Assembly (NCBI GenBank): GCA_902801465.1
Contig: CADCIH010000004.1
Coordinates: forward strand, 58,252 to 122,251
Direction: 5' to 3'
From: an uncultured Bacteroidia bacterium
GTDB lineage: Bacteria; Bacteroidota; Bacteroidia; Bacteroidales; F082
Length of the DNA: 64,000 bases
In this document: in pieces, positions 34,121 to 50,432 of the stretch
Position numbering within the stretch: the stretch's first letter is position 1
Layout of the letters: the number at the start of each line of letters is the position of its first letter
The notes under the pieces: generated by a model
The model's database searches: none
Told to the model about the DNA's origin: nothing
The model's input: the letters and a program-made list of their open reading frames with translations, nothing else
Position numbers and translations under genes: made by a program

Positions 34121-34143
34121 TCCAACAACGATTATTTGAAATG

Positions 34144-34180
34144 AAAGGCCCGCTGGATTTCAGCGGGCCTTTTCGTTTTT
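34144..34180. terminator. Bidirectional intrinsic terminator
   Basis: AAAGGCCCGCTG pairs perfectly with CAGCGGGCCTTT around GATTT, followed by TTCGTTTTT. It ends the barrel gene and can also stop the convergent PNGase operon. Confidence 0.9.
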
Positions 34181-34212: not shown

Positions 34213-34242
34213 AATCTCTAAATTCTTAATTCTTAATTATTT
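34208..34242. repeat. Class B repeat at the end of PNGase-like paralog A
   Basis: TCTAAATTCTTAATTCTTAATT; on the minus strand it encodes the terminal IIKN and stop of paralog A. Confidence 0.75.
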
Positions 34243-36826
34243 TCCTAGTTACCACTTTGCCTCCGATGACATTCACAAAGTAAACGCCTGAGGGAAGGTC
34301 GCTCACATCAATGGTGGCTTGCTTGTCCATGGCAAAGCTTCGGACATCCACGCCATAGGCGTTTACGATGTGGACGCTTAAGCGACCAAGCTCGTAATCT
34401 GTACGGATAGTCAGCCTATCCTTGGCAGGATTGGGCATTAACTCAAGCGTGAACGGATCCTTCTCCACATCGGGATAAGTCTTTACGCCCACCAACACAC
34501 TGGTGGTGTTGGAGTGGTTCACCATCATGCCCGAAACCCTAAGAATCGGGTTGTCGGGGTTGGAACAAAGGATACAAGCGTTCTGTCCATCGTGGCAATC
34601 GGGATAGTTGGGGTGGCATTGGTCGATGTAATTGGGGTCGAACTGATAGAACAGATGGGCCCCGCCTTGAGGCAGATACGCCGTCATGTCATAGTTCCAC
34701 ACCAAGCCCATGCTACCCGGACACCAACCGCTACGAGGATAAGTCCAAGTGCCGCTTTGTGGCTGGCAACCCGAAGGGTTGGGGGTGCATTCGCGCCAGA
34801 GATGTTGGTCGAACTTCAACGCATTGTTGACATATACATGATGCGTGGCTTCGTAGAACTCGGCGGCATTGCCTGTATTGTAGGCGTTGTTGCTTGAGTT
34901 GCTCCAGTTATGCCCCGTTGTGATAAGCTTCAGATGGGCTTCCTCGGCGCCTTCGGCAAACTCAATGTCACATTCGGGAACCGGCTGTTGGTTGAGATAA
35001 TCGCCAAATTCATACTTGCCGAACCAAATCGGTTGTATATCGGAATAGAGATAGTCTGGCGTCCCTTTTCGCATATTGAAGGTGAGTATCGGGTTGAAAC
35101 TCCAACCATGCCATATCTCATAATACACCTCAAACTCCACCAAACCTTGCAGGATGGAAGTATAGTCGGTAACATCGACATCGGCTTCACAAGCCACACC
35201 GAATGGTGAACAATAGCGGAACAGCTCCACCCATTCGCCACGGTGGTTTTTCACACGGACATAGCCGATATGGTCATAGGGATCGCAACTGTTGTTAAAA
35301 CACTGGTGATCGTAATGCGCGTTGATGGAGTCGAAGGCACCTACATGCGACGGCAGGGCATATTCTCCATGAACCGTCTGGTTGGCTGACGTCACCACCA
35401 AATCGCCGTTCATGGCTACCGCATCCACATCGTTGAAATTGTTGGTCACGATAAAATGGTTGCTGGCGGTCGTGGTCTTGCCACCCGACTGGGTAATGGA
35501 GGCTGTCATGCTGAAATCGCCAAAACCAGTAGGTTCCCAAGTACCGAACCAATAGCCGTTATCGGGGTTATTGGGATAGGCGGTCTGCAGCTGCACCGTT
35601 TGACCATTGATCTCGCAATGCACATCGTTGAACTTGATGACATCGCCATGCTCCACATAGGCACTCAAAACAAGCGTCATCGGCTTCAACTCAGGCATAT
35701 AAACGTTCAAATTGTCGTATGGTCTACGAATGGTGATCTCAGGGGTGTAATTGTTGGGGTTCACCACCTCAAAAGTACGGTTCACCGAAGGTGCAGGTTG
35801 CCATTGGGTACCGTCGCCAGGCTGTGAGGCACGTATCTTCACCATCCCTTCCTGACCGGTCAACGACACCGTATTTCCGTTTAAAGTGGCGTATTCAGAG
35901 CCTTCCATAATCTCAAACTGCACCGGTAACCCTGAGGTGGCGGTGGCATTCAAGTCAAAAGGAGCATCGAAGACCAGTTTGTCGGGGATGGCCTCAAACT
36001 CGATGAATTGTGAAGCAAGACCGGCAGGAGTATGACGCACCACAATGTTGTCGAAACCACCATGGGAGCTGCTCAGGAAGAACACGCCGTCCCACATCGC
36101 CGGGTCGAAACGGTCTCCGCTACCAGGCGTGAGACCGGCGTTCAAGCCTTGGATTTCAGGAATGGGCTCATATTCACCAGTGCAGCCATGGTCGGCGAAA
36201 AGCGAGACTGAACCGGCACCGCCATTGGCTTCCAAATCAATCATGATCTTCCATCGCGTCCAAGAGCCGTAGGGATTGTCGTAGTCGAAATCCACGGGCA
36301 TGGTATTGTCGGGCAGCACGATGCCATTGACAAAGCTGGGACGTGGATCCTGGCCTGTGGTGACGAAATAGATGCCTCCATCCTGAGTGGGCAAGTTGGG
36401 GTTGGGGCAGGTAGCCTCATAGCTCATCGGGGGCAACACCGAACCGTCGCCATCGGCATCGTAACCAACGCCGAAGCAGGTACCCCACCAATTGCGGAAC
36501 AGGTCCAATTCAATCTCGATGGTGCCACCTGTGGAGAAGTCAAATTCGAACTCGGAAGTCGATTTGTGGGTAGCCACCTCACCGAAGTTGGTGTTGGCAT
36601 TGTCGAAGAAAACCCCCATGGTCTCGTCGGGAGTGGTCTGGCCTCCACCGCCAAGATATTCAGTCTTGAGCTGACCGCCACCGGCGCTGTGGGCACGTGC
36701 CACCCAGCCATGTTGGCCGTTCAAAGGAGCGTTTTCCGTGAAATTGTTGAAGTCGTATGAGGCCTCGGTCTGGGCATAACCGATAAGACCTAAAGCCAAG
36801 AACAATAATAATAATGTTTTTTTCAT
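34226..36826 (-). CDS. PNGase F-like secreted enzyme, paralog A (last of four)
   Basis: 866 residues. Signal peptide 1-19, LamG/concanavalin-like sandwich about 20-268, two Ig-like domains (271-355, 360-462), PNGase F-like catalytic region about 468-770, T9SS type A domain about 795-866 (MPNPAKDRLTI ... VTRKIIKN). Alignment by eye with Flavobacterium PNGase F puts Asp60, Glu118 and Glu206 at Asp518, Glu570 and Glu656. The PNGase F disulfides 51-56 and 231-252 match Cys509-Cys514 and Cys680-Cys702; the 204-208 disulfide is absent. Arg61 is His519 here, and the GWCPG motif with its preceding Arg is kept. Expected reaction: hydrolysis of the GlcNAc-Asn amide of N-glycoproteins at the cell surface. 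Variation near the active site suggests altered glycan preference. Confidence 0.87.
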   Translation of the reverse strand: MKKTLLLLFLALGLIGYAQTEASYDFNNFTENAPLNGQHGWVARAHSAGGGQLKTEYLGGGGQTTPDETMGVFFDNANTNFGEVATHKSTSEFEFDFSTGGTIEIELDLFRNWWGTCFGVGYDADGDGSVLPPMSYEATCPNPNLPTQDGGIYFVTTGQDPRPSFVNGIVLPDNTMPVDFDYDNPYGSWTRWKIMIDLEANGGAGSVSLFADHGCTGEYEPIPEIQGLNAGLTPGSGDRFDPAMWDGVFFLSSSHGGFDNIVVRHTPAGLASQFIEFEAIPDKLVFDAPFDLNATATSGLPVQFEIMEGSEYATLNGNTVSLTGQEGMVKIRASQPGDGTQWQPAPSVNRTFEVVNPNNYTPEITIRRPYDNLNVYMPELKPMTLVLSAYVEHGDVIKFNDVHCEINGQTVQLQTAYPNNPDNGYWFGTWEPTGFGDFSMTASITQSGGKTTTASNHFIVTNNFNDVDAVAMNGDLVVTSANQTVHGEYALPSHVGAFDSINAHYDHQCFNNSCDPYDHIGYVRVKNHRGEWVELFRYCSPFGVACEADVDVTDYTSILQGLVEFEVYYEIWHGWSFNPILTFNMRKGTPDYLYSDIQPIWFGKYEFGDYLNQQPVPECDIEFAEGAEEAHLKLITTGHNWSNSSNNAYNTGNAAEFYEATHHVYVNNALKFDQHLWRECTPNPSGCQPQSGTWTYPRSGWCPGSMGLVWNYDMTAYLPQGGAHLFYQFDPNYIDQCHPNYPDCHDGQNACILCSNPDNPILRVSGMMVNHSNTTSVLVGVKTYPDVEKDPFTLELMPNPAKDRLTIRTDYELGRLSVHIVNAYGVDVRSFAMDKQATIDVSDLPSGVYFVNVIGGKVVTRKIIKN

Positions 36827-36841
36827 TTTACCAATCTAGTG

Positions 36842-36893
36842 TAAATTCCGCATTCCTAATTCTTAATTCTTAATTCTTAATTCTTAATTACCT
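36842..36893. repeat. Class B repeat between paralogs A and B
   Basis: Tandem TTCTTAATTCTTAATT fills the gap and encodes the terminal IKN and stop of paralog B on the minus strand. It is a direct repeat of the blocks at 34208 and 39512. Confidence 0.8.
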
Positions 36894-39498
36894 TCCTCGT
36901 TACCATCTTCCCACCAAGAACCTGAACGAAATAAATCCCTGCCGGAAGGTCGCTCATGTCAACCGTGGCGGTTCCCAGCATGTTGAATCCCCTGACCTTG
37001 ACACCTTGTGCGTTGAGGATGTGTACGCCGGTGCGGCCTTTGTCATAATCGGTCGTGATGGTCAAGGTGTTATTGACCGGATTGGGGGTAAGTGTCACTT
37101 GGAACGGTTCTTCGTCCGCGTCGGGACGTTCCGTAACCTCGGTCACCACGATTTCGCTCCTATGGCTATAGGTCACGATCTTGCCCGAAACCACAAGGAT
37201 GGGGTTGTCGGAATCCTGACAGTTGGGGCAGTTATTCTGTCCGGTCACGCAATCGGGATAGTTGGGGTGGCATTCGTCAACGTATTCAGGATCAAACTCA
37301 TACAACAACTCAGAGATGCCGTTCGAGAGATAGTTGTCGAGGCTGTAGTTCCACACTATAGGCATGCTGCCCGGACACCAGCCGGCGCGGGAATAGGCCC
37401 AAGTGCCGTTTTGGGGCTGGCATCCCGCGGGATTGGGAGAACAGGTGCGCCACAAATGTTGCGTGCCGATAAGAGCTCCGTCGACTTTGATGTTATGGGT
37501 GGCTTCGTAGAACTCGGCGGCATTGCCAGTGTTGTAGTTGCCGTTGGTACCACTGCTCCAGTGATGACCCGAAGTCACCAGATTAAGTTTGGCCTTCTCA
37601 ACGGTCGGGTCAAACACAATGTTGCGTGTCGGTACGGGACAGCGGTTTTCGTAATCGCCAAAGTCATAGCTGCCGAACCAAATCTCATTGAGATCGACAT
37701 AGGGGTATTCGGGCGTGCCCTTGGTATATTCAAAGATGGCGGTTGGGTTGTATCCCTGACCGCTGTTGTCCCACATTTCGCAATGCAGTTCAAACTCAAC
37801 CAGTCCTTGCAGCACGGTGGTGAAGTCGGTCACGTCGAGGTTGTCCTCGCATTCCACTCCGAATGGCGTGGTGTAGCGGCAGAGTTCCACCCATTCGCCA
37901 CGGTAGTTTTTCACACGGCAACGACTCACGTGGTCGTATGGGGGACAGCTTCCGTTCACACAATTGTGCAGATAATGGAGGTTGATGGAGTCGAAAGCAT
38001 TGACATGGGTCGGGAAGGCAAATTCGCCGTAGTCGGTAAACACTGTCTTGCTTACCACCAGCTCTCCGTTAAGTGCAGAGACCGTCATGTCGTTGTAGTT
38101 GGTGGTCACCTCGAATGTATTGGACACCGAAGTGACTTTGCCGCCTGATTGGGTGATGCTGGCTGTCATGTTGTAGGTGCCTTCGCCCGAAGGAGTCCAA
38201 GTGGTGTACCAATAGCCGTTTTCGGGCTTGTCGGGATAGTCGGTCTTCAACAGCAGTTCTTGTCCGTCGACGGTACATTTTACCTCTTCGAACTTGATGA
38301 CGTTGCCATGGTCAACGTATGCGCTCAGAACAAGCAATACGGGATTATCGAAATTGGGCATATACACCTTGGTGCCTTCGTAGGGGCGACGAATGGTGAT
38401 TTCCGGAGTATAGTTCTCGGGGTCGGCCACATAGAAGGAACGGGTCACGGCAGGGGCGGATTGCCATTGGGTGCCGTCGCCAGGTTGGATGGCGCGCACT
38501 TTCACGGTGCCTTCTTCGCCAGTAAGTGTGAGCACGTTGCCTTCAATGGTGGCAGGACCTTGGGTGACCTCAAAAGACACGGGAAGACCCGAAGTGGCCG
38601 TAGCTTGAAGGGTAATGGGGTCGTTGAACGACAGTTGGTCGGGGATGTTGGCGAAGTTGATGAACTGGGCTGCCAAACCTCCCGGCATGTGACGTACGGT
38701 GAAGTTGTCGAAACCGCCGTAGCCGCTATTGAGCAAAAAGATGTAGTTCCACATGGCAGGGTCGAATTTGTCGCCGCTGCCAGGGGTAAGACCCGCATTG
38801 ATGCCTTGTATTTCGGGCACGGGCTCGTATTCACCGCTGTTGGGATCGTCCATCTTGAACAGCGTGACAGCACCGGCACCGTCGTTGGCATCAAGATCGA
38901 TGCTGACTTTCCAGCGGTACCATTGCTGATGGGGCTCAAACGAGAAGGTGTTTGCAAATTGGTTGTTGGGTAGCACCACACCGTTCTTGAAGTTGGCATT
39001 GTTGGGATTCACACCTGTGGTCAACATGTAAATGCCTCCGTCGGGAAGGGTGCTGTTGACGTTGGGAACAATAGGCTCATAGTTTCCTTGAATAGGTGGT
39101 TGCACAAAGCCGTCGCCGTTGCCGTCATAGCCGATGCCGAAGAGGTCGCCCCACCATTCGCGCCACATGTCGCATTCGATTTCGATGACACCTCCCGAGG
39201 AGAAGTCGAAGCCGTATTCGGTAAGGCTGTGGGTGGCGATGTCGCCATAGCTTGTGCCGGAGCAAGTGCTGAACACGGCGATGGTTTCGTCGGCCGAGGT
39301 CATGTCACGCGGGCCAAGATAACCTGTATAGAGCGGACGTCCACCGTTACCGGAACTGTGTACCCGAACAACCCATCCATGTTGTCCGTTGAGGGGTTGG
39401 TCTTCTGCAAAATCGTTGAAGTCGATGGTGGCCTCGGTCTGAGCAAAACCGCAAAGTCCTAAAGCCCAGAACAATAATATTATTAGTGCTTTTCTCAT
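36877..39498 (-). CDS. PNGase F-like secreted enzyme, paralog B
   Basis: 873 residues with the same layout as paralog A: signal peptide (ends GFA before Gln), LamG-like about 21-275, Ig-like 278-360 and 363-465, PNGase-like about 470-785, T9SS about 800-873. Catalytic equivalents are Asp522, Glu574 and Glu662. It is clearly closest to paralog C over its whole length, including GLTPGSGDKFDPAMWN and NTGNAAEFYEATHNIK, so B and C are the latest duplication. Position 61 of PNGase F is His here too. The insert DECHPNYPDC ... NCPNC after the catalytic region is Cys-rich and shared by all four paralogs but not by PNGase F. Confidence 0.87.
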   Translation of the reverse strand: MRKALIILLFWALGLCGFAQTEATIDFNDFAEDQPLNGQHGWVVRVHSSGNGGRPLYTGYLGPRDMTSADETIAVFSTCSGTSYGDIATHSLTEYGFDFSSGGVIEIECDMWREWWGDLFGIGYDGNGDGFVQPPIQGNYEPIVPNVNSTLPDGGIYMLTTGVNPNNANFKNGVVLPNNQFANTFSFEPHQQWYRWKVSIDLDANDGAGAVTLFKMDDPNSGEYEPVPEIQGINAGLTPGSGDKFDPAMWNYIFLLNSGYGGFDNFTVRHMPGGLAAQFINFANIPDQLSFNDPITLQATATSGLPVSFEVTQGPATIEGNVLTLTGEEGTVKVRAIQPGDGTQWQSAPAVTRSFYVADPENYTPEITIRRPYEGTKVYMPNFDNPVLLVLSAYVDHGNVIKFEEVKCTVDGQELLLKTDYPDKPENGYWYTTWTPSGEGTYNMTASITQSGGKVTSVSNTFEVTTNYNDMTVSALNGELVVSKTVFTDYGEFAFPTHVNAFDSINLHYLHNCVNGSCPPYDHVSRCRVKNYRGEWVELCRYTTPFGVECEDNLDVTDFTTVLQGLVEFELHCEMWDNSGQGYNPTAIFEYTKGTPEYPYVDLNEIWFGSYDFGDYENRCPVPTRNIVFDPTVEKAKLNLVTSGHHWSSGTNGNYNTGNAAEFYEATHNIKVDGALIGTQHLWRTCSPNPAGCQPQNGTWAYSRAGWCPGSMPIVWNYSLDNYLSNGISELLYEFDPEYVDECHPNYPDCVTGQNNCPNCQDSDNPILVVSGKIVTYSHRSEIVVTEVTERPDADEEPFQVTLTPNPVNNTLTITTDYDKGRTGVHILNAQGVKVRGFNMLGTATVDMSDLPAGIYFVQVLGGKMVTRKVIKN

Positions 39499-39511
39499 TT
39501 TACCAAATATT

Positions 39512-39556
39512 ATAAATTCCTAATTCTTAATTCCTAATTCCTAATTCTTAATTATC
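39512..39556. repeat. Class B repeat between paralogs B and C
   Basis: CCTAATTCTTAATTCCTAATT units. They encode the IIKN end and TAG stop of paralog C on the minus strand. Confidence 0.8.
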
Positions 39557-42192
39557 TTCCTCGTGACCATCTTTCCGCCAAGCATTTGAACGAAATAGAC
39601 GCCTGCCGGGAGATCGCTCATGTCGATGGTGGCGGTGCCCTCCACACCAAAAGCTTTTACATGGACTCCTTGCGAATTGATCACACGGACGCTGACCCGA
39701 CCTTTGTCGTAGTCGGTGGTGACGGTCAGGGTATTTTTCACCGGGTTAGGGGTAAGGGTCACATGGAAGGGCTCCTCGTTGGCGTCGGGGCGTTCCGTCA
39801 CTTCGGTCACAACGATATTGCTTTGATGGCTGTAGGTCACCAACATGCCCGACACAATCAAGATGGGGTTGTTGGAATCCAGACAGTTGATACAACCGTT
39901 CTGTCCAGTGACACAATCAGGGTAGTTGGGATGGCATTCGTCAACATACGTGGGGTCGAATTCATAAAGCAACTCTGGAATGCCACTGTTGAGGTAGTTG
40001 TCGAGGCTGTAGTTCCACACGATCGGCAAGCTGCCCGGACACCAACCGGAGCGGGAATAGGCCCAAGTGCCGTTTTGGGGCTGGCATCCCGCAGGATTGG
40101 GGCTGCAGGTTCGCCACAGATGTTGTGTAAAGGTGGTGTTGCCGTTGATCTTGATATTGTGTGTGGCTTCGTAGAACTCGGCGGCATTTCCGGTGTTATA
40201 GGCGCCATGTTCGGTATCACTCCAGTGATGACCCGAGGTCACCAAGCGCAGATTGGCTTTCTCCACGGTGGGATCAAAGGTGATGTTGCGAGGCGGCACC
40301 GGGCAAAGGTTTTCGTAATCGCCGAAGCTGTAACTGCCGTACCAAATTTCATTGAGGTCGACGTATGGATAGACGGGTGTGCCTTTGGTATATTCAAAGA
40401 GAATGGTCGGACAATAGCCCTCACCAGCCTGTTCATACATCTCACAACTGTATTCGAATTCAACAAGCCCTTGCAGTAAGGTCGTGAAGTCTGTCACATC
40501 CAAGTCATCCTCGCATTCCACACCAAACGGAGTGGTGTAACGGCAAAGTTCCACCCATTCACCACGATAGTTTTTCACACGGACGCTGCTCACATGATCG
40601 TACGACTTGCAGTTGCCGTTCAAGCAGTTGTGTAGGTAATGCATGTTAATGGAATCAAAAGCGTTGACATGGGTGGGGAACGGAAATTCACCATAACTGG
40701 TAAACTGCTGGTTGGTTGCCACCAGCTCGCCGTTGAGTGCGGAAACCGTGATATCATTGTAGTTGGTGGTGACCTCGAAGGTATTGCTCACTGTGGTCAC
40801 CTTGCCTCCGGTTTGGGTGATGCTGGCCGTCATATTGTAGGTACCTTCGCCCGAAGGGGTCCAGGTGGTGTACCAATAGCCATTATCTGGCTTGTTGGGA
40901 TAATCGGTCTTCAACACCAATTCCTGACCGTCAACAAGGCATTTCACTTCCTCGAACTTCAGTACCTCGGGATGGTCGATATAAGCGCTCAGCACCACCA
41001 ACACGGGGTTATCGAAATCGGGCATGTACACTTGGGTACCCTCATAGGGACGGCGAATGGTGATTTCTGGGGTATAGTTCTCGGGATCCACCACAAAGAA
41101 GGTACGGGTCACTGTCGGGGCGGGCTGCCAATTGGTGCCGTCGCCCGACTGGATGGCACGGACTTTTACAGTGCCTTCCTCGCCAGTAAGCGTGAGGATG
41201 TTCCCTTCGAGTGTAGCGGGGCCTTGGGCGATTTCAAAGGTCACGGGAAGGCCGGAGCTTGCCGTGGCTTGGAGCTCAATGGGCTCGCTATAGACCAGTT
41301 GGTCACCGATCTCCGGAAAATCGATGAATTGTGCCGCCAAGCCTCCGGCCATGTGACGCACGTTGAAATTGTCGAAACCACCCATGCCGTTGTTGAGCAT
41401 GAACATGCTGTTCCACATGGCGGGATCGAATTTGTCGCCACTGCCTGGGGTAAGACCGGCATTCACACCCTGGCACTCGGGAACGGGTTCCCATTCACCG
41501 TTGTTGGGATCATCCATCCGATAAAGGGTGACGGCGCCTTGGCCGTTGTTGGCATCGAGGTCGATGGAAATCTTCCAACGGAACCAGCAATCCATCGTCG
41601 TGGCAGGTTGGAAATTGCAAGCCATTGTGTTGTTGGGCAACACCGGACCATATTGGAAATAAGGATCGGTGGGACGGTATCCTGTCGACAGCAAATAAAT
41701 GCCGCCTTCGGCAGAGGTGCTATTCGGATCGGGAATCAACGGTTCCGTGAGATTATGGCCTGGTGCGGTATAAAAAGGAGGAACCACAAAACCATCGCCG
41801 TCAGCGTCATAGCCGATGCCAAAAAGATGGCCCCAAAGCCCGCGGTAGATGTCGCATTCTACCTCAATGACACCACCCGTTGAAAAGTCGAAACCGTATT
41901 CGGCAAGGCTATGGGTGGCCACATCGCCATGGGCTGTGCCCGAAGCATGGGAAAACACGCCCATAGTCTCATCCATGGTCGGTGAGGGGTCTCCCTTCCA
42001 AAAATGTCCGATGTAACCTGTGTACATGGGGATGCCGCCGTTGCTTGAGGTATGCGGACGGGTAATCCATCCGCCTTGTCCGTTCAGGGGCTCCTCTTCA
42101 AGATAATCGTTAAAACTGAAGAGGGCTTCCGTTTGGGCTTTCAAGCCGAATGAGAAAGCCAACATGACTAAAATTGTGAATACTTTCTTCAT
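39541..42192 (-). CDS. PNGase F-like secreted enzyme, paralog C
   Basis: 883 residues, the longest of the set. Signal peptide ends LKA before Gln; LamG-like about 21-285 with a short extra loop near 135-150; Ig-like 288-370 and 373-475; PNGase-like about 480-800; T9SS about 810-883. Catalytic equivalents are Asp532, Glu584 and Glu672. The Trp that follows Glu118 in PNGase F is Tyr here (CEMYE), and the position after the catalytic Asp is His. Closest to paralog B. The same terminal VTRKIIKN as in A. Confidence 0.87.
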   Translation of the reverse strand: MKKVFTILVMLAFSFGLKAQTEALFSFNDYLEEEPLNGQGGWITRPHTSSNGGIPMYTGYIGHFWKGDPSPTMDETMGVFSHASGTAHGDVATHSLAEYGFDFSTGGVIEVECDIYRGLWGHLFGIGYDADGDGFVVPPFYTAPGHNLTEPLIPDPNSTSAEGGIYLLSTGYRPTDPYFQYGPVLPNNTMACNFQPATTMDCWFRWKISIDLDANNGQGAVTLYRMDDPNNGEWEPVPECQGVNAGLTPGSGDKFDPAMWNSMFMLNNGMGGFDNFNVRHMAGGLAAQFIDFPEIGDQLVYSEPIELQATASSGLPVTFEIAQGPATLEGNILTLTGEEGTVKVRAIQSGDGTNWQPAPTVTRTFFVVDPENYTPEITIRRPYEGTQVYMPDFDNPVLVVLSAYIDHPEVLKFEEVKCLVDGQELVLKTDYPNKPDNGYWYTTWTPSGEGTYNMTASITQTGGKVTTVSNTFEVTTNYNDITVSALNGELVATNQQFTSYGEFPFPTHVNAFDSINMHYLHNCLNGNCKSYDHVSSVRVKNYRGEWVELCRYTTPFGVECEDDLDVTDFTTLLQGLVEFEYSCEMYEQAGEGYCPTILFEYTKGTPVYPYVDLNEIWYGSYSFGDYENLCPVPPRNITFDPTVEKANLRLVTSGHHWSDTEHGAYNTGNAAEFYEATHNIKINGNTTFTQHLWRTCSPNPAGCQPQNGTWAYSRSGWCPGSLPIVWNYSLDNYLNSGIPELLYEFDPTYVDECHPNYPDCVTGQNGCINCLDSNNPILIVSGMLVTYSHQSNIVVTEVTERPDANEEPFHVTLTPNPVKNTLTVTTDYDKGRVSVRVINSQGVHVKAFGVEGTATIDMSDLPAGVYFVQMLGGKMVTRKIIKN

Positions 42193-42204
42193 AACAATAA
42201 ACTT

Positions 42205-42236
42205 TTATCTATTAACTCTTATCTTTTATCTAATAA
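42205..42236. repeat. Class C repeat between paralogs C and D
   Basis: TTTTATCTATTAACTCTTATC and related units. On the minus strand it starts with AGA TAA, the last Arg codon and stop of paralog D, exactly as at the end of galE. Confidence 0.8.
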
Positions 42237-44766
42237 CCAGCTTCTCCGTCACCAACCTACCGCCCAGGAATTGGAGCGTGTAGATTCCCGCGGGCAATGC
42301 ACTCACATCAATGGTGCGCTCGCCTTCAACGGTGAAATACATCACCATCTGACCCATTGCATTGAGCATCATCACGCTGACGGCGCCATGCTCGTAATCG
42401 GTGCTGATGGTGACTTGACCTTTGGCGGGATTGGGATAAACCTGTGTTGTAAAGGGCGGTTCCGAAGTTACTTGATGAACCTCGGTAAACACGTTTTCGT
42501 CGTTGCTGTAGGAGACTACCTTACCTGAAACCTTCAAAATCGGGTTGTCGGGGGCGGCACACTCCGTGCAGGTGACTCCGCTCACGCAATCGGGATGGTT
42601 GGGATGGCAGAGGTCGAGATAGGTGGGATCGAACTGGTAGAACAGTTCCGAATGACCTTCTGGCATATATTCGGTGAGATCGAAATTCCACACCATACCT
42701 ATGGAGCCGGGGCACCAGCCGCTACGCGAATAGGTCCATGTGCCGCTTTGGGGTTGGCAGCCTGCGGGATTGGGAGTGCAGGTGCGCCAAAGATGTTGGT
42801 CGTATTTGTTTTCTCCGTTAACGAAGATATGGTGTGTGGCTTCGTAGAACTCGGCGGCGTTGCCGGTATTGTAGCTATTGTTGTTGCCGCTGCTCCAATT
42901 ATGTCCGGTGGTGGTGATTTTCAACTTGGCACGCTCTGCTTTTTTCCTGAATTCATAATCCACCACGGGAACGGGCTGCTGATTGGCATAATCGCCGAAA
43001 CTATAGGTGTCGAACCAAATTTCGTCGACATCGACATAAAGATACTCAGGTGTGCCTTTGGTAAACGTAAACGTCAGATTGGGATTGGAGCCGCTACCAT
43101 TCCAAAGCTCCAGATACAACTCCATTTCCACCAGTCCCTGAAGCAACGAGGTATAGTCGCTCACGTCGACATTGTCGCTGCACTCCACCCCGAACGGGGT
43201 GATGTAACGGAACAGTTCCACCCACTCGCCGCGGTAGTTGCGGACTCTCACTCCGCCCGCACGGTCGTAGGTGTCGCAATTGCCATCGACGCAGTTGTAC
43301 TCGAAATACGCCACGATGTTGTTGAAGGCTCCGACATGGGTTGGAAACACATACTCACCCTGTTTGCTATGTTGGGTAGGAGTACACACCAAATCGCCGT
43401 GCATGGTGGTCACTTCCACTGTGTTCTCCGTCTGGTTCTTGACTTCAAACTGGTTGGTCACCGTGGTAGTCTTGCCTCCCGTCTGGGTGACACTGACTGT
43501 CATGGTATAGTCGCCGAAAGTCGCAGGCGTCCAATAACCAAAATAATAGCCGTTCTCTGGATCGTCCGGATAATCGGTATTTAAAACGATATCTTCGCCA
43601 TTGATGGTAGCCTTGACTTGGTTGAACTTGATCACTTCGGGATGCTCGATGTACGCTGAGACCACTATCAACACCGGATGAAGCGCATCCAAATAAACCT
43701 TGGTGTCATTGTAGGGACGGCGCAAAGTGATTTCGGGAGTATAAAGATCGGGATCGACCACCTCGAAGGTCTTGATCACATCAGGGGCGGGGAGCCATGA
43801 ACTGTTGCCTGCTTGGGTAGCTTTCAACCTGACCACACCCGTTTCGCCTGTCAAGGTAAGGATGTTGCCGTTGATGGTGGCAGGACCTTCTATCAACTCA
43901 AACGTGACAGGAAGCCCTGAAGAAGCCGTGGCTTCCAAGGTAATGGGATCGTTGAAGACCAACTGGTTGGGGATGTCGGCCATCTCGATAAGTTGGGCGT
44001 TGCCGTCGGGTTGTTGGCGCACCAGCAGGTTGTCGAATCCCCCCGTTCCGCCTTGGGAGTGGAAGAAGATGCCGTCCCAAACGTGATAGTCGTTCTTGTC
44101 GCCCGAACCCGGGGTGAGATGCATATTAATATTGGTAGCTGCGGCCTGTTGAATCCATTCGCCTTCGCAACCGGGCTGCACAAACACGGTCACCGAACCT
44201 TCGCCGTTGAAGGCGGTGAAGTCGAACGACATCTTGTAGCGGTTCCATCCGCCTTGGTCGAAGTCAAAATCCACCGAGGTGCCGTTGGGCAGATGCAACT
44301 GGGCGTGGCCGCTGTCGCCCTGGCCTTTGCAGGACAAATAAACACCGCCGTCAGCATCGGTCATGCCTGGCAGAATGCATCCGTCACCGTCGCTGTCGAA
44401 ACCTACACCGAAGAAGTTGCCCCACCAAGTGCGGTTCATGTCCATCTCCAAGTCCATGATGCCTCCCTGTTGGAAGCTGAAATTGAAGTTGGATGAGGCC
44501 TTGCGGGTAGCGGTGCGACCCACGCCTGAACCACCGTAGGGATACCACACGGCAATGGATTCGTCGGGCGCCATGTCGGAACCGCAAACATAGTCCACAT
44601 TAAAATCCTGTGATGCTGGCGCCGTCTGATAATGCGTCACCCACCCGTCCTGACCGTTGAGGTTCTGGCTTCCCGTGGTCAAATTGTTAAAGTCATATAG
44701 GTATTCCACCTGAGCTCTCGCCCAAAAAGAAACCATTAAGGTAATAATTAGCAATATTCTCTTCAT
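42226..44766 (-). CDS. PNGase F-like secreted enzyme, paralog D (first after susD)
   Basis: 846 residues and the most PNGase F-like of the four. Signal peptide ends ARA before Gln. LamG-like about 20-255, Ig-like 258-337 and 341-443, PNGase-like about 450-760, T9SS about 770-846 (VYPNPAKGQVTI ... VTEKLVIR). Catalytic equivalents are Asp501 (CDTYDRAG, with Arg61 kept as Arg502), Glu553 (LYLELW, with Trp120 kept) and Glu639 (NAAEFYEATHH). FRYITPFG and DVSDYTSLLQG match FITPYW and DVTDFKSLLSG of PNGase F. Expected activity: peptide-N4-(N-acetylglucosaminyl)asparagine amidase. The N-terminal sandwich may bind glycans. It is the most divergent from A-C, so probably the oldest split. Confidence 0.88.
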   Translation of the reverse strand: MKRILLIITLMVSFWARAQVEYLYDFNNLTTGSQNLNGQDGWVTHYQTAPASQDFNVDYVCGSDMAPDESIAVWYPYGGSGVGRTATRKASSNFNFSFQQGGIMDLEMDMNRTWWGNFFGVGFDSDGDGCILPGMTDADGGVYLSCKGQGDSGHAQLHLPNGTSVDFDFDQGGWNRYKMSFDFTAFNGEGSVTVFVQPGCEGEWIQQAAATNINMHLTPGSGDKNDYHVWDGIFFHSQGGTGGFDNLLVRQQPDGNAQLIEMADIPNQLVFNDPITLEATASSGLPVTFELIEGPATINGNILTLTGETGVVRLKATQAGNSSWLPAPDVIKTFEVVDPDLYTPEITLRRPYNDTKVYLDALHPVLIVVSAYIEHPEVIKFNQVKATINGEDIVLNTDYPDDPENGYYFGYWTPATFGDYTMTVSVTQTGGKTTTVTNQFEVKNQTENTVEVTTMHGDLVCTPTQHSKQGEYVFPTHVGAFNNIVAYFEYNCVDGNCDTYDRAGGVRVRNYRGEWVELFRYITPFGVECSDNVDVSDYTSLLQGLVEMELYLELWNGSGSNPNLTFTFTKGTPEYLYVDVDEIWFDTYSFGDYANQQPVPVVDYEFRKKAERAKLKITTTGHNWSSGNNNSYNTGNAAEFYEATHHIFVNGENKYDQHLWRTCTPNPAGCQPQSGTWTYSRSGWCPGSIGMVWNFDLTEYMPEGHSELFYQFDPTYLDLCHPNHPDCVSGVTCTECAAPDNPILKVSGKVVSYSNDENVFTEVHQVTSEPPFTTQVYPNPAKGQVTISTDYEHGAVSVMMLNAMGQMVMYFTVEGERTIDVSALPAGIYTLQFLGGRLVTEKLVIR

Positions 44767-44798
44767 AGTTTTCCGTTTTCCACTTTCCGTTTTCCGTT
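44767..44798. repeat. Class A repeat between susD and paralog D
   Basis: TTTTCCGTTTTCCACTTTCC units fill the 30-base gap, starting on the minus strand right at the TAA of the SusD gene. Confidence 0.85.
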
Positions 44799-46494
44799 AT
44801 TTTGTCATCCACCAAACCTTCGTCTGCCTCGTATCCCCATGCGACATCCTAGCCAATTCAGTGACATAATTATCATAATTATATTCTATTTCTTTCTGAG
44901 GATACTCTAACCTGTAGGAAGTCAGCTTGGCATGGTCGGTAGTAGTAGGCGTGGCCATCGTGCGACGGGCCAGTGCCCAGGCTTCCCAAGGCTGGCGGAA
45001 GAGGTTCAGCCAACGTTGCTGATAGATCATCTTCAAGTAGAACTCTTGGCTGCCGTCGTATTCAGGATTCATCCATACGGCATAGTTCATCACGTTGGCC
45101 GCCATGTTGTTGCCCAAGGCCCAAATGTCAAGGTTTCCAGCATAGCTGGTGTATTGCGGATAGAGATAAGTCCAACGGCTGGTTTGGTTCGGGATATGCG
45201 CCCAAAACAGGCAGGATTGGTAAACACCCTGACGGATGGACTCGTCGGCATTTAGGGGCGGGGTGATTCCGCCAATGTTCCTTACCTCGATCTCAGCCTT
45301 CATGAACAGCACGTCAGCGTAGGTCACCAGAATTTGAGGCACATAGCGTTCGTCTCTGGTCAGATAATAATTAAAGGGGGAGAACAAGCACGAGGGGCCT
45401 TTGAAGGTGTAGCTGCCGTCGCGCGACTGGGCGTAGGGCGAGCCGCCTTCGACAGGTGTCTCGGCGGTATGGATCTGCGGATAAGGTCTCCAGGCGCCAT
45501 CGGGGAAGCTGTCGGTCTTATGGTTGGTGTCGAAGAACAGGAAGGTGCGATAGTCGAAGATGCCGCTGCCATCCATGTCGTCGGTCGAAGAGAGGCAACT
45601 CCAGATGGTCTCGCCCATACGGAGGTGCTTGTGCTCACGGAACGACCAGTTGGTGTCCCAGTTGGTTCCCAGCAGGCTAGGCCACAAGCAGATGCCTCCA
45701 CCGGTAGCTGTGCCGCCTGAAGCATTCATCGCGGTATAGATGAAGTTGTAGGCATCCACCAGCAAAGGCGTGGCGTAGTCGGGATCCTTGTCGTACATGC
45801 GCAGGCCGTGGCGCAGGATCAACGAGTTGGCGAACTCGGCCCAGAGGGTGTAGTTGTTGTTGAGCAGCACATCGTAAGGCAGCTTGTAATAGTCGTTGCC
45901 GCTTGCGGTGGTGGCTGAGTCGGCATGTAGGAGATCGCGCGACCAAACCAACTCTTCCAACAGCGATTTATAGATGCTCTCTTGGGTGTCCCATTCGGGT
46001 TTCATGGTCTCTTGCGAGGAGGCGTTCTCCCAAATACGGGCGGCCTGGGTGTAAGGCATATCGCCGAAGATATCCGTCACTTTAAAGGTCTGATAGGCCT
46101 TCATTATGTTGAGTTGGGCACGCACCTTGTCGCACACGGCCCTATCGCCTTGTTCCTCGACATAAGCGTCGAAATGCCTTTCCAGTTCACGAATGTTGGC
46201 AAGCATGGCGTAATAATTGGTCCAGACCTCCGAGATGCCGATTTGCGAGTTACCCCACGACTCAGAGGTCAAAGCCCCCAGCTCGGTCTCGGGATACCAA
46301 ATTTCGTTTTGCAGGTAAAACTGCTCGTTCATGCTCTGCTGCAAGGAGCTCACCACGCCGTTGAACAACCCCTCAATGGTGGTTCCGGGAGGCGAGAACG
46401 GCGCCTGGTTCATTTCTTCGAAGCCTTTGGTGCAACCGACGAAAGCCATTGCAAGCGACGCCCAGCATATTACTTTGTATAAAATCCGTCTCAT
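44797..46494 (-). CDS. SusD/RagB-like surface lipoprotein
   Basis: 565 residues. Lipobox FVGC with Cys21. The SusD-like_2 type pattern is clear: LNIMKAYQTFKVTDIFGDMPYTQA, WAEFANSLILRHGLRM, the long helical N-terminal TPR-like part, and a C-terminal YQQRWLNLFRQPWEAWALARRT. SusD proteins cap the SusC transporter and bind the incoming ligand, usually an oligosaccharide or glycopeptide. Genetic context predicts N-glycans or glycopeptides released by the four PNGase-like enzymes encoded downstream. It follows susC after 68 bases. Confidence 0.92.
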   Translation of the reverse strand: MRRILYKVICWASLAMAFVGCTKGFEEMNQAPFSPPGTTIEGLFNGVVSSLQQSMNEQFYLQNEIWYPETELGALTSESWGNSQIGISEVWTNYYAMLANIRELERHFDAYVEEQGDRAVCDKVRAQLNIMKAYQTFKVTDIFGDMPYTQAARIWENASSQETMKPEWDTQESIYKSLLEELVWSRDLLHADSATTASGNDYYKLPYDVLLNNNYTLWAEFANSLILRHGLRMYDKDPDYATPLLVDAYNFIYTAMNASGGTATGGGICLWPSLLGTNWDTNWSFREHKHLRMGETIWSCLSSTDDMDGSGIFDYRTFLFFDTNHKTDSFPDGAWRPYPQIHTAETPVEGGSPYAQSRDGSYTFKGPSCLFSPFNYYLTRDERYVPQILVTYADVLFMKAEIEVRNIGGITPPLNADESIRQGVYQSCLFWAHIPNQTSRWTYLYPQYTSYAGNLDIWALGNNMAANVMNYAVWMNPEYDGSQEFYLKMIYQQRWLNLFRQPWEAWALARRTMATPTTTDHAKLTSYRLEYPQKEIEYNYDNYVTELARMSHGDTRQTKVWWMTK

Positions 46495-46529
46495 TTTATA
46501 TTATATATTTATTTAATTTGTCTTAATTA

Positions 46530-46562
46530 AAACTTTCCGTTTTCCGTTCTCCGTTCTCCGTT
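46530..46562. repeat. Class A repeat between susC and susD
   Basis: ACTTTCCGTTTTCCGTTCTCC units beginning on the minus strand at the susC stop codon. Confidence 0.85.
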
Positions 46563-49500
46563 TTAAAGGTTTACCTTCAACGATAACATAACGGATCTCG
46601 TTCCCGGATACGAACCGTACTCCAATCCCTGGGCGTTGCCTGAACCTTGGGTACCTTCGGGGTTGATGTTGTCGGGCAAGGTCTTGTAGAAATAAAACAG
46701 GTCGCGACCCACCAGGGAGATGGATGCCTGTTTGAAGAAGTTCTGCTTGTCCAAAAGCTTACGCGGGAAGTCGTAGGTCAACGAGAGCTCACGCATCTTG
46801 ATCCAAGTGTTGTCGACGATGCCCGGGGTGGAGATGATCTTTCCCCAGCCGCCGTAGTTGGGCATGTATTTGTAGAGGTAATGCACTACGTTCTCGTTTT
46901 CATGGGCCTCGCCGGTCTCGGTATTGATGCAATAGCCTGGCAAAATCACGCCATAGTCGCCAAGATACTCATCGTTTTCGTAATAGGGCAGGCCATTGCC
47001 TTCGCGTTCGTAAAGCGTTGCAGGACTCTGGCCGGTCTGCATGCCCACCACATAGGAGGCGCAGTAAATCTGACCGCCCAGCTTGGCATCGACCAAGGCG
47101 TAGAGTGACCAGTTCTTGTAGGAAGCCCTAAGGTTGACACCTCCTGTGACCAAGGGAGCGCAGTTGCCTACCGGCACACGGTTGTTGGTAATCAGGTATT
47201 CCGTGCCCGACTCGTTGATCAAAGGCATCGGTTTGCCGTCGGCGTCATAGAAAGGACCTACCACTGTGCCGTCGGGCATGGTGTATTCGTACACATAATC
47301 CCAACCGTAGATGGTACCATATTCTTCGCCTTCTTCCACTGCGATGGCGGGACCGTTAGAGCCCCAAATCTCGGAGAGGAGGTACATATTGGCACCCGAA
47401 AGGTCAACAATTTTGTTCTTGTTGCGGGCGAAGTTCAAGCCCACTTGCACGCCGTGATCCTTGCCGTTGGTGATGTCGTAGGTCATGATAGCCTCGATAC
47501 CCTTGTTGGTCACCACACCCGTGTTGATGGTCACGTTGGACGCGCCTGACGAAGGAGCCAGGGGCGAGGAGAGGATTTGGTCCCACGAATAGATGTCGTA
47601 ATAGGTGAAGTCCATGTTGAAACGGGCACCCAAACCCAGGTCGAAGCCAGCCTCAAAAGCGCGCTGGCGTTGGGGCTTCAGCTCCAGAGGCGGTACCGTG
47701 CTCGGCAGCGACGACGACAGTTGGTGACCGAACGAACCGGTGTTGTAGGTGTAGTTCAGCTGGTACGGCTCAGTGTCGCTGGCGGTTTGTGCCCACGACC
47801 CTCTCAGCTTGAGGTAGTTCACCGGACCCCAGTTCAAGTTCTTGAAGGCGGAAGTCGGCACAAAGCTCAAGGTCGCCGAGGGGTAGAAGTAGCTGTTGTT
47901 GGTGATGGGCAGGGTCGACGACCAGTCGTTACGGCCTGTTACATCCAAAAACATCCAGTCGCTGTAGCTCAAGTTCAGGAAGGCATACACCGAGTTTACT
48001 TGTTTCTCCCATTTCGACTCGCCAAAGGTGCGTTCGGTGGCCGAGGAGTAGTTGTAGATGGTGTAGAGGTTGGCGTAGGCCCAGGTGCCTGATGTGCCGT
48101 TGAGTCCGTCGCGGTAGCCGTGGTATTGTTCGCCACCCACCGAGAAGCGGAAGTTGAAATTAGAGCCGAATATCTTGTCTTTGTAAGCCGTCAGCAGGAA
48201 GTCCATGTCGCGGGTCATCGAGGTCGACTTGCTCTTGTAGTAATAGCCGCCTGCCATGCCGTCCAAGGTGGTGGGCTTGTTTTTGGTGATGTAGTTGTCG
48301 TTGGTCCAGTCCAGGGCGACCTTACCGGTGGCGGTCAACCAGGGAGTGATATCATACATCATGCGCACCGAGCCGAACATCTTGTCGCGGTCCAAGGTAG
48401 TGTTGTGGTTGTAGAACGACCAGAACGTGCTGCTGTAGATATACATATAGGGATAGCCGTCAAACTGGTTCATGGTGCCGTCGGGGTTCTCGTAGGAATT
48501 CACTTCGAGGCCTTTCCAGCTACGGGGCCAGCTATAGAGCAAACCTTTGTTGAAGTTGCTGTTCGACTCACCGATTTCGGGGGAGTTCAGTCGGTAGTAG
48601 TCCAGATAGGTGAAGGCCACGTCGACCTTGATCTTGTCGGAGACATTAATGAGCGAACCCACGTTGACGGTAGTTTGTTTCAGGTTGCAGTTGTCGATGA
48701 TGGCGTTGGTCCTTGAGTCGGTGAACGACACGCGGATGCTGCCGAAGTCGCCGGCGTTTTGCAACGAGACGTTGTTGTTGATGGTATGTCCGGGATGAAA
48801 CAGCATCTTGAGGTTGTCGGGTTGCGGGTCGTATTTGCGCACCACGCCGTCCCACCAGAGCACGCTCTCGCCGTTCATCGCAGGGCCCCAGCTTTGGGCG
48901 CCGCCATAGTAGCCGAAGGTGGTGTTGGTAGGTTCGCCTGCCGGACCGTCGTCAACGCTATAGATACCGGGATATTCATATACCTGGTTGCCGTCTTCAT
49001 CGAACATCCCCTCGATGGGCGTGAGGGTAGGGGTATGGAAGGTGATGGGGCCGCCAGCGCCGTATTTGTTTTGCACGCTGCGGTAGAGGTAGGGCTGTGT
49101 AAACTTGTAGCTGGCGGAGTAGCTGATGCCCAGACCGCGTTGCTTGCTGCCCTTCTTGGTGGTGATGAGCACCACGCCGTTACCGCCACGTGAGCCGTAC
49201 AGAGCCGCTGCGGTGGGACCTTTCAGGATGTCGATATTCTCTATATCCTCTTGGTTGATGTTGTTGAGTGCCGTACCCCAGTCGCGACCGCCGCTCCATT
49301 CGGTGACGCCGCCTTCGTTGGTCATGGGCACGCCGTCCACCACAATCAGAGGTTGGTTGTCGCCGAAGATGCTGTTGTTGCCGCGGATGGTGATACGTGA
49401 CGAGCCGCCGTCGACGCCGTTGGGGTTGATGATCTGTACACCTGCTGAGCGTCCGCTGAGGGCGCTAATCACGCTGCCTGAGCCCGACTTGGCGATGAGA

Positions 49501-49889
49501 TCGCCTCCGATCTCTTCGGTGGCGTAACCCAATTCACGTTTCTGGCGTTTGATGCCCAAGGCGGTCACCACCACGTCGTCGAGCATCTGCGCATCTTGGT
49601 CCATGGTGACATTGATCTTGTTTCGACCATTCACCTTGATTTCCTGTGTGGTGAATCCCACAAAGCTGAATACCAGGGTACCTTTGGAGTCCACTCCGAT
49701 GCTGTAATTGCCGTCAATATCGGTGACGGTGCCAGCAGCTTCGCCTTTGATGGTGACGGTAACGCCTGGCAGTCCAAAGCCATCGTCGCTCGAGACCACC
49801 TTACCTTGCACCATGATGCTTTGGGCGTTCAATCCCAAGGGAAGCAACATCATGGCAATGATAAAGAAAAGTAGATGTTTTTTATTCAT
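46563..49889 (-). CDS. SusC/RagA-like TonB-dependent outer-membrane transporter
   Basis: 1108 residues. Signal peptide ends LNA before Gln. Carboxypeptidase-regulatory domain about 28-105 (VQGKVVSSDDGFGLPGVTVTIKG ... GFTTQEI), TonB-box region MLDDVVVTALG, plug with QPLIVVDGVPM and KGPTAAALYGSRGGNGVVLITTKKG, then a 22-strand barrel ending in LSLKVNL. There is no N-terminal STN domain, so no direct anti-sigma signalling is expected. It imports the ligand held by the SusD partner. First gene of a 15.7-kb operon with a single promoter at 49939. Confidence 0.95.
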   Translation of the reverse strand: MNKKHLLFFIIAMMLLPLGLNAQSIMVQGKVVSSDDGFGLPGVTVTIKGEAAGTVTDIDGNYSIGVDSKGTLVFSFVGFTTQEIKVNGRNKINVTMDQDAQMLDDVVVTALGIKRQKRELGYATEEIGGDLIAKSGSGSVISALSGRSAGVQIINPNGVDGGSSRITIRGNNSIFGDNQPLIVVDGVPMTNEGGVTEWSGGRDWGTALNNINQEDIENIDILKGPTAAALYGSRGGNGVVLITTKKGSKQRGLGISYSASYKFTQPYLYRSVQNKYGAGGPITFHTPTLTPIEGMFDEDGNQVYEYPGIYSVDDGPAGEPTNTTFGYYGGAQSWGPAMNGESVLWWDGVVRKYDPQPDNLKMLFHPGHTINNNVSLQNAGDFGSIRVSFTDSRTNAIIDNCNLKQTTVNVGSLINVSDKIKVDVAFTYLDYYRLNSPEIGESNSNFNKGLLYSWPRSWKGLEVNSYENPDGTMNQFDGYPYMYIYSSTFWSFYNHNTTLDRDKMFGSVRMMYDITPWLTATGKVALDWTNDNYITKNKPTTLDGMAGGYYYKSKSTSMTRDMDFLLTAYKDKIFGSNFNFRFSVGGEQYHGYRDGLNGTSGTWAYANLYTIYNYSSATERTFGESKWEKQVNSVYAFLNLSYSDWMFLDVTGRNDWSSTLPITNNSYFYPSATLSFVPTSAFKNLNWGPVNYLKLRGSWAQTASDTEPYQLNYTYNTGSFGHQLSSSLPSTVPPLELKPQRQRAFEAGFDLGLGARFNMDFTYYDIYSWDQILSSPLAPSSGASNVTINTGVVTNKGIEAIMTYDITNGKDHGVQVGLNFARNKNKIVDLSGANMYLLSEIWGSNGPAIAVEEGEEYGTIYGWDYVYEYTMPDGTVVGPFYDADGKPMPLINESGTEYLITNNRVPVGNCAPLVTGGVNLRASYKNWSLYALVDAKLGGQIYCASYVVGMQTGQSPATLYEREGNGLPYYENDEYLGDYGVILPGYCINTETGEAHENENVVHYLYKYMPNYGGWGKIISTPGIVDNTWIKMRELSLTYDFPRKLLDKQNFFKQASISLVGRDLFYFYKTLPDNINPEGTQGSGNAQGLEYGSYPGTRSVMLSLKVNL

Positions 49890-49938
49890 AAATATATTAA
49901 TTGTTTCTAATATAGTTATTCCATTTCCATTTTACGGT

Positions 49939-49947
49939 ACAAATATA
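49939..49947 (-). promoter_or_regulatory. -7 promoter box for the susCD-PNGase operon
   Basis: TATATTTGT on the minus strand, about 50 bases before the susC ATG. It touches the T run of the terminator at 49948-49975. No SARP, hybrid two-component or anti-sigma gene lies beside the operon. Confidence 0.6.
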
Positions 49948-49975
49948 AAAAAATCCCGTTTATTTGACGGGATTT
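49948..49975 (-). terminator. Intrinsic terminator after the broken T9SS gene
   Basis: AAATCCCGT and ACGGGATTT pair around TTATTTG. Read on the minus strand the hairpin is followed by TTTTTTTATATTT. Confidence 0.8.
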
Positions 49976-50004: not shown

Positions 50005-50432
50005 TTAATACTCTTTGACAAACCTCTTGACTATCTTGTTGCCATCGGATGTTTTGATTCTCAGCAGGTAGCATCCTGGCGACAAGCAACTGACGTTGAT
50101 GGTTCCCGTTGATTCGGTCGCTGTTATCAACCGGCCATCCATAGTATTGACCTATACATTTCCGACCAATAATCGTTTTTCACAACACGGTTCTCTTCAT
50201 CGTAAAAGAAGTATTGATCCGAAAAAACCACATTGGGGACCACGCTTGTTACTATTGTTTTGATTTCCGTACAATTCCATCGATCGTCGTACGAAAACAG
50301 ATCCTTTGCTTCGTCACCATAACAAACGCTATCCAACTTATGAGTATAGTTGTTGATTTCCTGCGCCGAAACTTTTGTAAACGTGGATGCTACCAACAGG
50401 AACAGAAAGAAGAGTTTTGATGTTTTTTTCAT
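50005..50432 (-). pseudogene. Broken gene for a small secreted protein with T9SS tail
   Basis: The intact N-terminal part is 101 residues: signal peptide ending VSA before Gln, then LDSVCYGDEAKDLFSYDDRWN and YFFYDEENRVVKN, as in small RHS-like exported proteins. The frame stops at 50127. In another frame, after a stop at about 50154, the sequence continues as VNTMDGRLITATES ... NVSCLSPGCYLLRIKTSDG ... IVKRFVKEY, which is a clear end of a T9SS type A domain. The middle of that domain (PNP motif) is missing. A deletion plus frameshift is the simplest reading. A correct short protein without sorting domain cannot be excluded. Confidence 0.75.

Follow-up and report, generated by a model that had tools for sequence, protein, structure and literature searches.

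An operon of a SusCD pair and four PNGase F-like proteins with T9SS sorting domains in an uncultured Bacteroidales bacterium

We describe here an operon in a 64,000-nucleotide (nt) stretch of DNA, hereafter the window, from an uncultured Bacteroidia bacterium (GenBank assembly GCA_902801465.1, contig CADCIH010000004.1, positions 58,252 to 122,251 of the forward strand), in which a SusC/SusD pair is followed by four consecutive PNGase F-like proteins (P1-P4) that carry sorting domains of the type IX secretion system (T9SS). With a probability of roughly 0.7, the operon serves a cell-surface apparatus for feeding on glycoproteins, in which T9SS-exported PNGases would deglycosylate, C25 peptidases would cut the protein and the lone SusCD of the genome would import the product. 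On the outer surface, the four enzymes would hydrolyse the Asn-GlcNAc amide bond of N-glycoproteins of plant, fungal, protozoal or host origin in the gut, with Asp and a free N-glycan as products. The unmasked protein would then be cut by C25 (gingipain-type) T9SS peptidases encoded elsewhere, and the cell's one SusCD would take in peptides or glycopeptides, free N-glycans, or both, the glycan being finished by enzymes of glycoside hydrolase (GH) families GH92, GH20 and GH29.

The operon and its PNGase F-like products

By sequence, all four proteins are PNGase F-like. The N-glycanase_C model (PF09113) scores above its 25-bit cut-off in each (E 1.4e-13, 2.6e-10, 1.2e-12 and 1.6e-15 for P1 to P4), and a profile of the four matches PNGase F at E 8e-36. 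The model of the N-terminal domain, PF09112, gives a weak match in P4 only (E 0.067), while the phmmer alignment of P3 with PNGase F starts at chain residue 26. An initial annotation, made from the letters of the window, had proposed superposing predicted structures on PNGase F. Carried out on P4 (AlphaFold2, 47 sequences, mean pLDDT 82.7, pTM 0.61), the prediction yields a model whose first four Foldseek matches are all PNGase F entries, the best being 1pnf (E 6.3e-20, target TM 0.81, rmsd 3.3); the modelled fold of P4 is the PNGase F double jelly-roll. The T9SS C-terminal sorting domain is also above cut-off in all four (PF18962 and TIGR04183), which classes them as type A cargo and predicts a location at the cell surface. 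Thus, the PNGase F-like and T9SS parts of the layout first proposed hold in every paralog. Its LamG-like domain finds no support in Pfam, and for its two Ig-like domains per protein there are Big_1 matches below cut-off, in P2 and P3 only, the P4 model being beta-rich over its whole length. PF22252 (NBL) has no match in P1-P4, and Glu118 is kept, which sets the proteins apart from the PNGF-II type.

The six open reading frames (ORFs), with paralogs of 846-883 aa, lie in a single minus-strand operon just as the initial annotation had described (Table 1). They are transcribed in the order SusC, SusD, P4, P3, P2, P1, with intergenic gaps of 30-68 nt. SusC and the SusD-like protein adjoin and both score over the cut-offs of their models, and thus form a SusCD pair. 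No glycoside hydrolase or other carbohydrate-active enzyme, as would mark a polysaccharide utilization locus, is present in the operon or among the ten flanking ORFs scanned. Promoters of the Bacteroidales type have the consensus TTTG-n-TAnnTTTG; none precedes SusC, and the window holds 3 matches to this consensus versus 1.4 expected. Sigma-70-like sites occur at chance level only, and terminator-like sites in the region as a whole likewise number 18, versus 17.9 in shuffles.

Table 1. Features of the operon and its edges; coordinates are positions within the window
Feature	Coordinates	Strand	Evidence and remarks
P1, PNGase F-like T9SS protein, 866 aa	34226-36826	-	ORF, Pfam and alignment; residues 61/118/120 His/Glu/Trp
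P2, PNGase F-like T9SS protein, 873 aa	36877-39498	-	Signature His/Glu/Trp; late split from P3
P3, PNGase F-like T9SS protein, 883 aa	39541-42192	-	Signature His/Glu/Tyr; matches PNGase F (3pms), E 1.9e-26
P4, PNGase F-like T9SS protein, 846 aa	42226-44766	-	Signature Arg/Glu/Trp, shared with PNGase F; 1pnf as best match of the model
SusD-like protein	44797-46494	-	PF12771, E 3.8e-34, 118.7 bits (cut-off 27)
SusC	46563-49889	-	TIGR04056, E 5.7e-169, 564.5 bits (cut-off 368.25)
Terminator-like hairpin	49951-49975	-	Between upstream broken gene and SusC
Terminator-like hairpin	34143-34173		After P1

Active sites and lineages of the paralogs

The proteins were compared in an alignment of 108 rows, comprising the four paralogs of the window and 104 ORFs from the related loci described below with a best BLAST match that covers 600 or more query residues, shorter ORFs being excluded. 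In PNGase F numbering, Asp60, Glu206, Trp191, Arg248, Trp251, Cys51, Cys56, Cys231 and Cys252 are invariant in 108/108 rows, and the 47 rows aligned with P4 reach down to 45% identity. The acids that the initial annotation had aligned with Asp60, Glu118 and Glu206, and two of the disulfides (C51-C56 and C231-C252), are indeed found in all four paralogs. In Ngly2, a distant homolog, the counterparts of Asp60 and Glu206 are essential, and in PNGase F the chitobiose core is held in part by Trp59, Arg61 and Trp191 (PMC12753239). Judging from the kept residues and the modelled fold, amidase activity of P1-P4 is likely. A block of core alpha-1,3-fucose is ascribed to Glu118 (PMC9522356). Because this residue is kept in all four paralogs, substrates with core alpha-1,3-fucose are predicted to give a negative result, and each paralog is predicted to reject plant complex N-glycans that bear it.

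In a maximum-likelihood tree of the 108 proteins, P1, P4 and the P2/P3 pair of the window fall into separate, strongly supported clades, and the split between P2 and P3 is late, close to the window's own lineage. The four paralogs, as read from their sequences, are thus three old lineages, and a recent amplification of one gene is rejected, late splitting being confined to P2/P3. The P1 clade does not include five rows that bear the label P1 by their best BLAST match (L018, L019, L043, L074 and L078). Differences among the lineages lie at positions 61, 118 and 120. Rows labelled P4 have Arg/Glu/Trp in 38 of 39 cases, the set of PNGase F that P4 of the window retains; His/Glu/Tyr is found in 38 of the 48 rows labelled P2 or P3; and rows labelled P1 have His/Glu/Trp (8/21), Arg/Gln/Trp (11/21) or Arg/Val/Trp (2/21). 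Given these differences, the paralogs probably divide substrates among themselves.

One SusC in a proteolytic genome

The genome that carries the operon (2.46 Mb, 97.9% complete) has a single SusC. Among 16 candidates scored, one exceeds the cut-off, and this is the SusC of the operon with 564 bits, the next reaching 85.7. With the best 9 candidates at most scored per genome in a draw of 80 genus members, 58 have one SusC match at E <=1e-60 (56 of them above cut-off), 22 have none and zero have two. In a family draw, with at most the best 5 candidates per genome, 52 of the 53 SusC-bearing genus members have one match (partial and below cut-off in one of them, G122) and G060 has two, versus at least two matches in 71 of the 72 SusC-bearing genomes of other genera. 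We then crossed 75 genus members over the genus draw, the family draw and a PF09113 scan, taking the SusC zero of G145 and G146 from the genus draw and defining as divergent, by score alone, a PF09113 match with E worse than 1e-40. Divergent matches are present in 53/53 genomes with a SusC match and in 1/22 without (G133, an assembly of 460 contigs), giving a Fisher p of 1e-17. As to the 22 of 75 genus members that have no SusC match (e.g. G014 and G041), 18 have a high-scoring PF09113 gene only and three are without PF09113.

Related loci tie PNGase-like genes to SusCD as well. A scan of genome contigs gave 131 related stretches, and the best 80 of 131 were kept, resulting in 77 loci. These are titled as Bacteroidales or Bacteroidia, bacterium F082 or Lentimicrobiaceae bacterium, many of them named after ruminant-gut samples and a few after horse faeces. 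SusC or SusD lies within the fetched stretch in 39/77 loci, and in 37 of these 39 a PNGase-like gene directly follows SusD. Of the 37 SusC matches, 33 share 82-91% identity with the SusC of the window and four share 48-66%, as measured over the best segment. The initial annotation had recommended a search for further susCD loci with several PF09112/PF09113 proteins; among the 77 loci, L006 alone has four PNGase-like genes in a row (at least 1/77 loci), and L017 and L024 have three. Neighbours were defined here as genes less than 600 nt apart. Since many loci are truncated at contig ends, all these counts are lower bounds. That PNGase F enzymes are usually single genes, as had been stated, holds in part, since two genes are present in 7 of the 13 Bacteroides species that have PNGases (PMC9522356) and the matches listed include PF09113 pairs side by side in other families of Bacteroidales (G187, G254 and G498).

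Elsewhere in the genome, genes are found for the steps that would follow deglycosylation. There are 10 Peptidase_C25 matches, and the eight scanned as full ORFs comprise two PorU sortases and six proteins with a C25 propeptide and a T9SS tail, both above cut-off; its gene content marks the genome as strongly proteolytic. A tandem of three C25 peptidase genes (G000 C2:63730-71966) and one of two PorU genes (G000 C1:189692-194145) resemble the PNGase array in their tandem-paralog style. The glycosidase matches include four to GH92 (one partial), three to GH20 (one weak) and three to GH29. For the sialidase model BNR_2 there is no match in this genome, other sialidase models and GH2 lying outside the search. 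GH18 has no match either, which points to the PNGases as the release step, GH85 not being among the models searched. A separate gene, L083:8660-10540, encodes a PNGF-II-like protein (E 1.9e-133) with PF22252, PF09112 and PF09113 all above cut-off. It is near two POT-family transporters and is a candidate enzyme for plant N-glycans with core alpha-1,3-fucose; two Fic-domain genes flank it (L083:7756-8832 and L083:10595-11782). The GH92, GH20 and GH29 genes and this PNGF-II-type enzyme show that N-glycans, too, should be usable.

Next to the operon, at 32534-33553 (+), lies a gene for an M28-family protein with a lipoprotein-like start. The protein is closest to glutamine cyclotransferases (4fuu, 1.6e-92), and BLAST homologs of its gene are found in 30 of the 77 fetched loci, in 29 cases with the PNGase-like gene on the other strand. 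We considered it as a peptidase of the system and set it aside, its nearest solved relatives being mostly named glutamine cyclotransferases. By eye, Gln follows the signal peptide in each of P1-P4, in agreement with the Q-rule (PMC10653852). Directly upstream of SusC, at 50005-50432 (-), there is an apparent relic of a small T9SS protein, with a signal-peptide ORF and, in a different frame, a T9SS-tail-like stretch, both recognised by eye. Farther genes of the window encode a large leucine-rich-repeat protein (29893-32493, +), a MORN-repeat protein (54521-56005, +) and a Card1-like nuclease with a CARF domain (56957-58153, -).

Cargo, rival explanations and known systems

What the SusCD pair imports may be approached through its relatives. 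Among solved structures, SusC is closest to BT_2264 (251.6 bits, versus 154.7 for the next and 116.3 for RagA), a member of the Bt2263/64-peptide complex described in PMC7782687. The top match of SusD by sequence is 6dk2. By fold, in a model of low confidence (pLDDT 65), the matches of SusD include chitin- and LacNAc-binding SusDs, and glucan, chitin and unknown binders rank before BT2263, a mixture that led us to discard this model as a guide to cargo. We conclude that the system acts on glycoproteins, and regard peptides and glycans as evenly matched candidates for the cargo. Given the lone SusC, its co-occurrence with PNGase-like genes in the genus, the strong proteolysis encoded in the genome and the nearness of SusC to BT_2264, peptides may be imported instead of N-glycans or together with them.

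Several findings weigh against the glycoprotein-feeding apparatus proposed here. At the active site, Trp59 of PNGase F is replaced by Tyr and Trp207 by Phe throughout the alignment, P1-P3 have His for Arg61, and Glu118, present in 89 of 108 rows, is replaced in the other 19 (Gln in 11, Asp in 5, Val in 3). The C204-C208 disulfide is absent, these positions being Ala and Tyr in P1-P4. The p value for co-occurrence in the genus is uncorrected for shared descent, and the link between SusC and PNGase fails outside the genus, where 72 of 74 sampled genomes have a SusC match and 45 have any PF09113 match. In addition, neither the nearness of SusC to BT_2264 nor the low-confidence SusD model fixes the cargo. 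The changes at Trp59, Arg61 and Trp207 and the lost disulfide, together with the large added beta-rich parts, would suit PNGase-like domains that serve as modules for binding or adhesion, or act on some other bond, and have no amidase activity; however, with Asp60, Glu206, Arg248, Trp191 and Trp251 invariant over such divergent sequences, we find this explanation improbable.

Two other rivals differ in what is taken to be the nutrient. The operon could be a classical N-glycan utilisation locus, comparable to the Gpd complex, with the glycan released by surface PNGases and taken up through SusCD as the main nutrient. Support comes from the GH92, GH20 and GH29 matches, from the chitin- and LacNAc-binding proteins among the SusD matches, from the Gpd precedent (PMC3128124) and from group 2 PNGase genes of Bacteroides, which neighbour SusC/D pairs in loci read as N-glycan loci (PMC9522356). 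Yet the nearest solved SusC is the peptide-binding BT_2264, the operon holds no glycosidase, no SusC or SusD match is found in the stretches around the three of four GH92 matches that were fetched (the fourth lies on C32), and the genome is highly proteolytic, all of which leaves this explanation possible but doubtful. We give the same tentative credence to a RagAB-like importer of peptides or glycopeptides, for which the PNGases would merely unmask protein for proteases, leaving the glycan as a side product. Here, besides the affinity of SusC to BT_2264, the single SusC and the six C25 peptidases make a setting that, as we infer, recalls Porphyromonas gingivalis, which is asaccharolytic (PMC8048996) and has gingipains and RagAB (PMC8048996, PMC11817032). 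A T9SS-tailed M28 gene also adjoins a PNGase-like gene in four relatives (L018, L019, L043 and L073), its product being leucyl-aminopeptidase-like in L018, the one compared with solved structures. Nevertheless, the GH92, GH20 and GH29 matches speak for consumption of the glycan, the accessible part of PMC7782687 does not establish peptide transport by BT_2263/2264 in vivo, and the SusD evidence is neutral.

The domains and the type of partnership are already known; the arrangement is new and its genomic setting striking. In a literature search to which most subscription journals and supplements were external, neither a T9SS-exported PNGase nor an array larger than two PNGases came up. PNGase F of Elizabethkingia (1pnf, 1pgs, 3pms) shares with the paralogs the fold modelled for P4, the residues Asp60, Glu118, Glu206, Trp191, Arg248 and Trp251 and two disulfides. 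It differs in that P1-P4 have added N-terminal, Ig-like and T9SS parts and come from four genes in a SusCD operon, apart from the replacements noted above (His61 in three of four). PNGF-II and the group 2 PNGases of Bacteroides (4r4z, 7zgn) have the PNGase catalytic fold in common with them, but P1-P4 are without the NBL domain, keep Glu118 where group 2 enzymes have Gly (PMC9522356), carry T9SS tails and stand four in a row. The zebrafish acid PNGase Ngly2 (9lwg) has the same catalytic Asp and Glu, with a weak sequence match (E 0.08) and a clear fold match (E 1.5e-11); unlike P1-P4, it is eukaryotic and homodimeric and has a protease-associated domain (PMC12753239).

At the level of whole loci, the Gpd complex of Capnocytophaga canimorsus comes closest as a working analogue; in it, as here, one operon combines a SusCD pair with a surface N-deglycosylation enzyme (PMC3128124). 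Gpd employs an endo-beta-N-acetylglucosaminidase lipoprotein and the SiaC sialidase, whereas the present system has PNGase-like T9SS proteins in a genome where neither GH18 nor BNR_2 has a match. Genetically, the closest analogue is found in Bacteroides, where some group 2 PNGase genes adjoin a SusC/D pair and, in B. sartorii, only that pair (PMC9522356). From these loci the operon of the window differs in its predicted T9SS export, its copy number and its place beside the lone SusCD of the genome. BT_2263/2264 and the RagAB system of P. gingivalis resemble it in the affinity of SusC and in a C25-rich genome, respectively, and differ in that here the PNGase genes are within the operon itself.

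Taken a step further, and only tentatively, the glycoprotein-feeding apparatus may be a glycoprotein 'utilisome' of a gut Bacteroidales lineage, in which a single SusCD that is RagAB-like in its setting, three old PNGase types and C25 peptidases would together import unmasked peptides. If so, protein feeding would begin with deglycosylation outside the cell, unlike what is expected of the two Bacteroides PNGases studied, which are predicted to be periplasmic, a prediction that its authors add may be wrong (PMC9522356). The operon would also offer N-glycan-release enzymes with changed active sites, as well as a natural setting in which to study the imports of a SusCD that has no competitor of its kind in the genome. 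Should the surface set indeed be tied to the only SusCD of the cell, protein feeding in the rumen and similar guts would have N-deglycosylation as its initial, external step.

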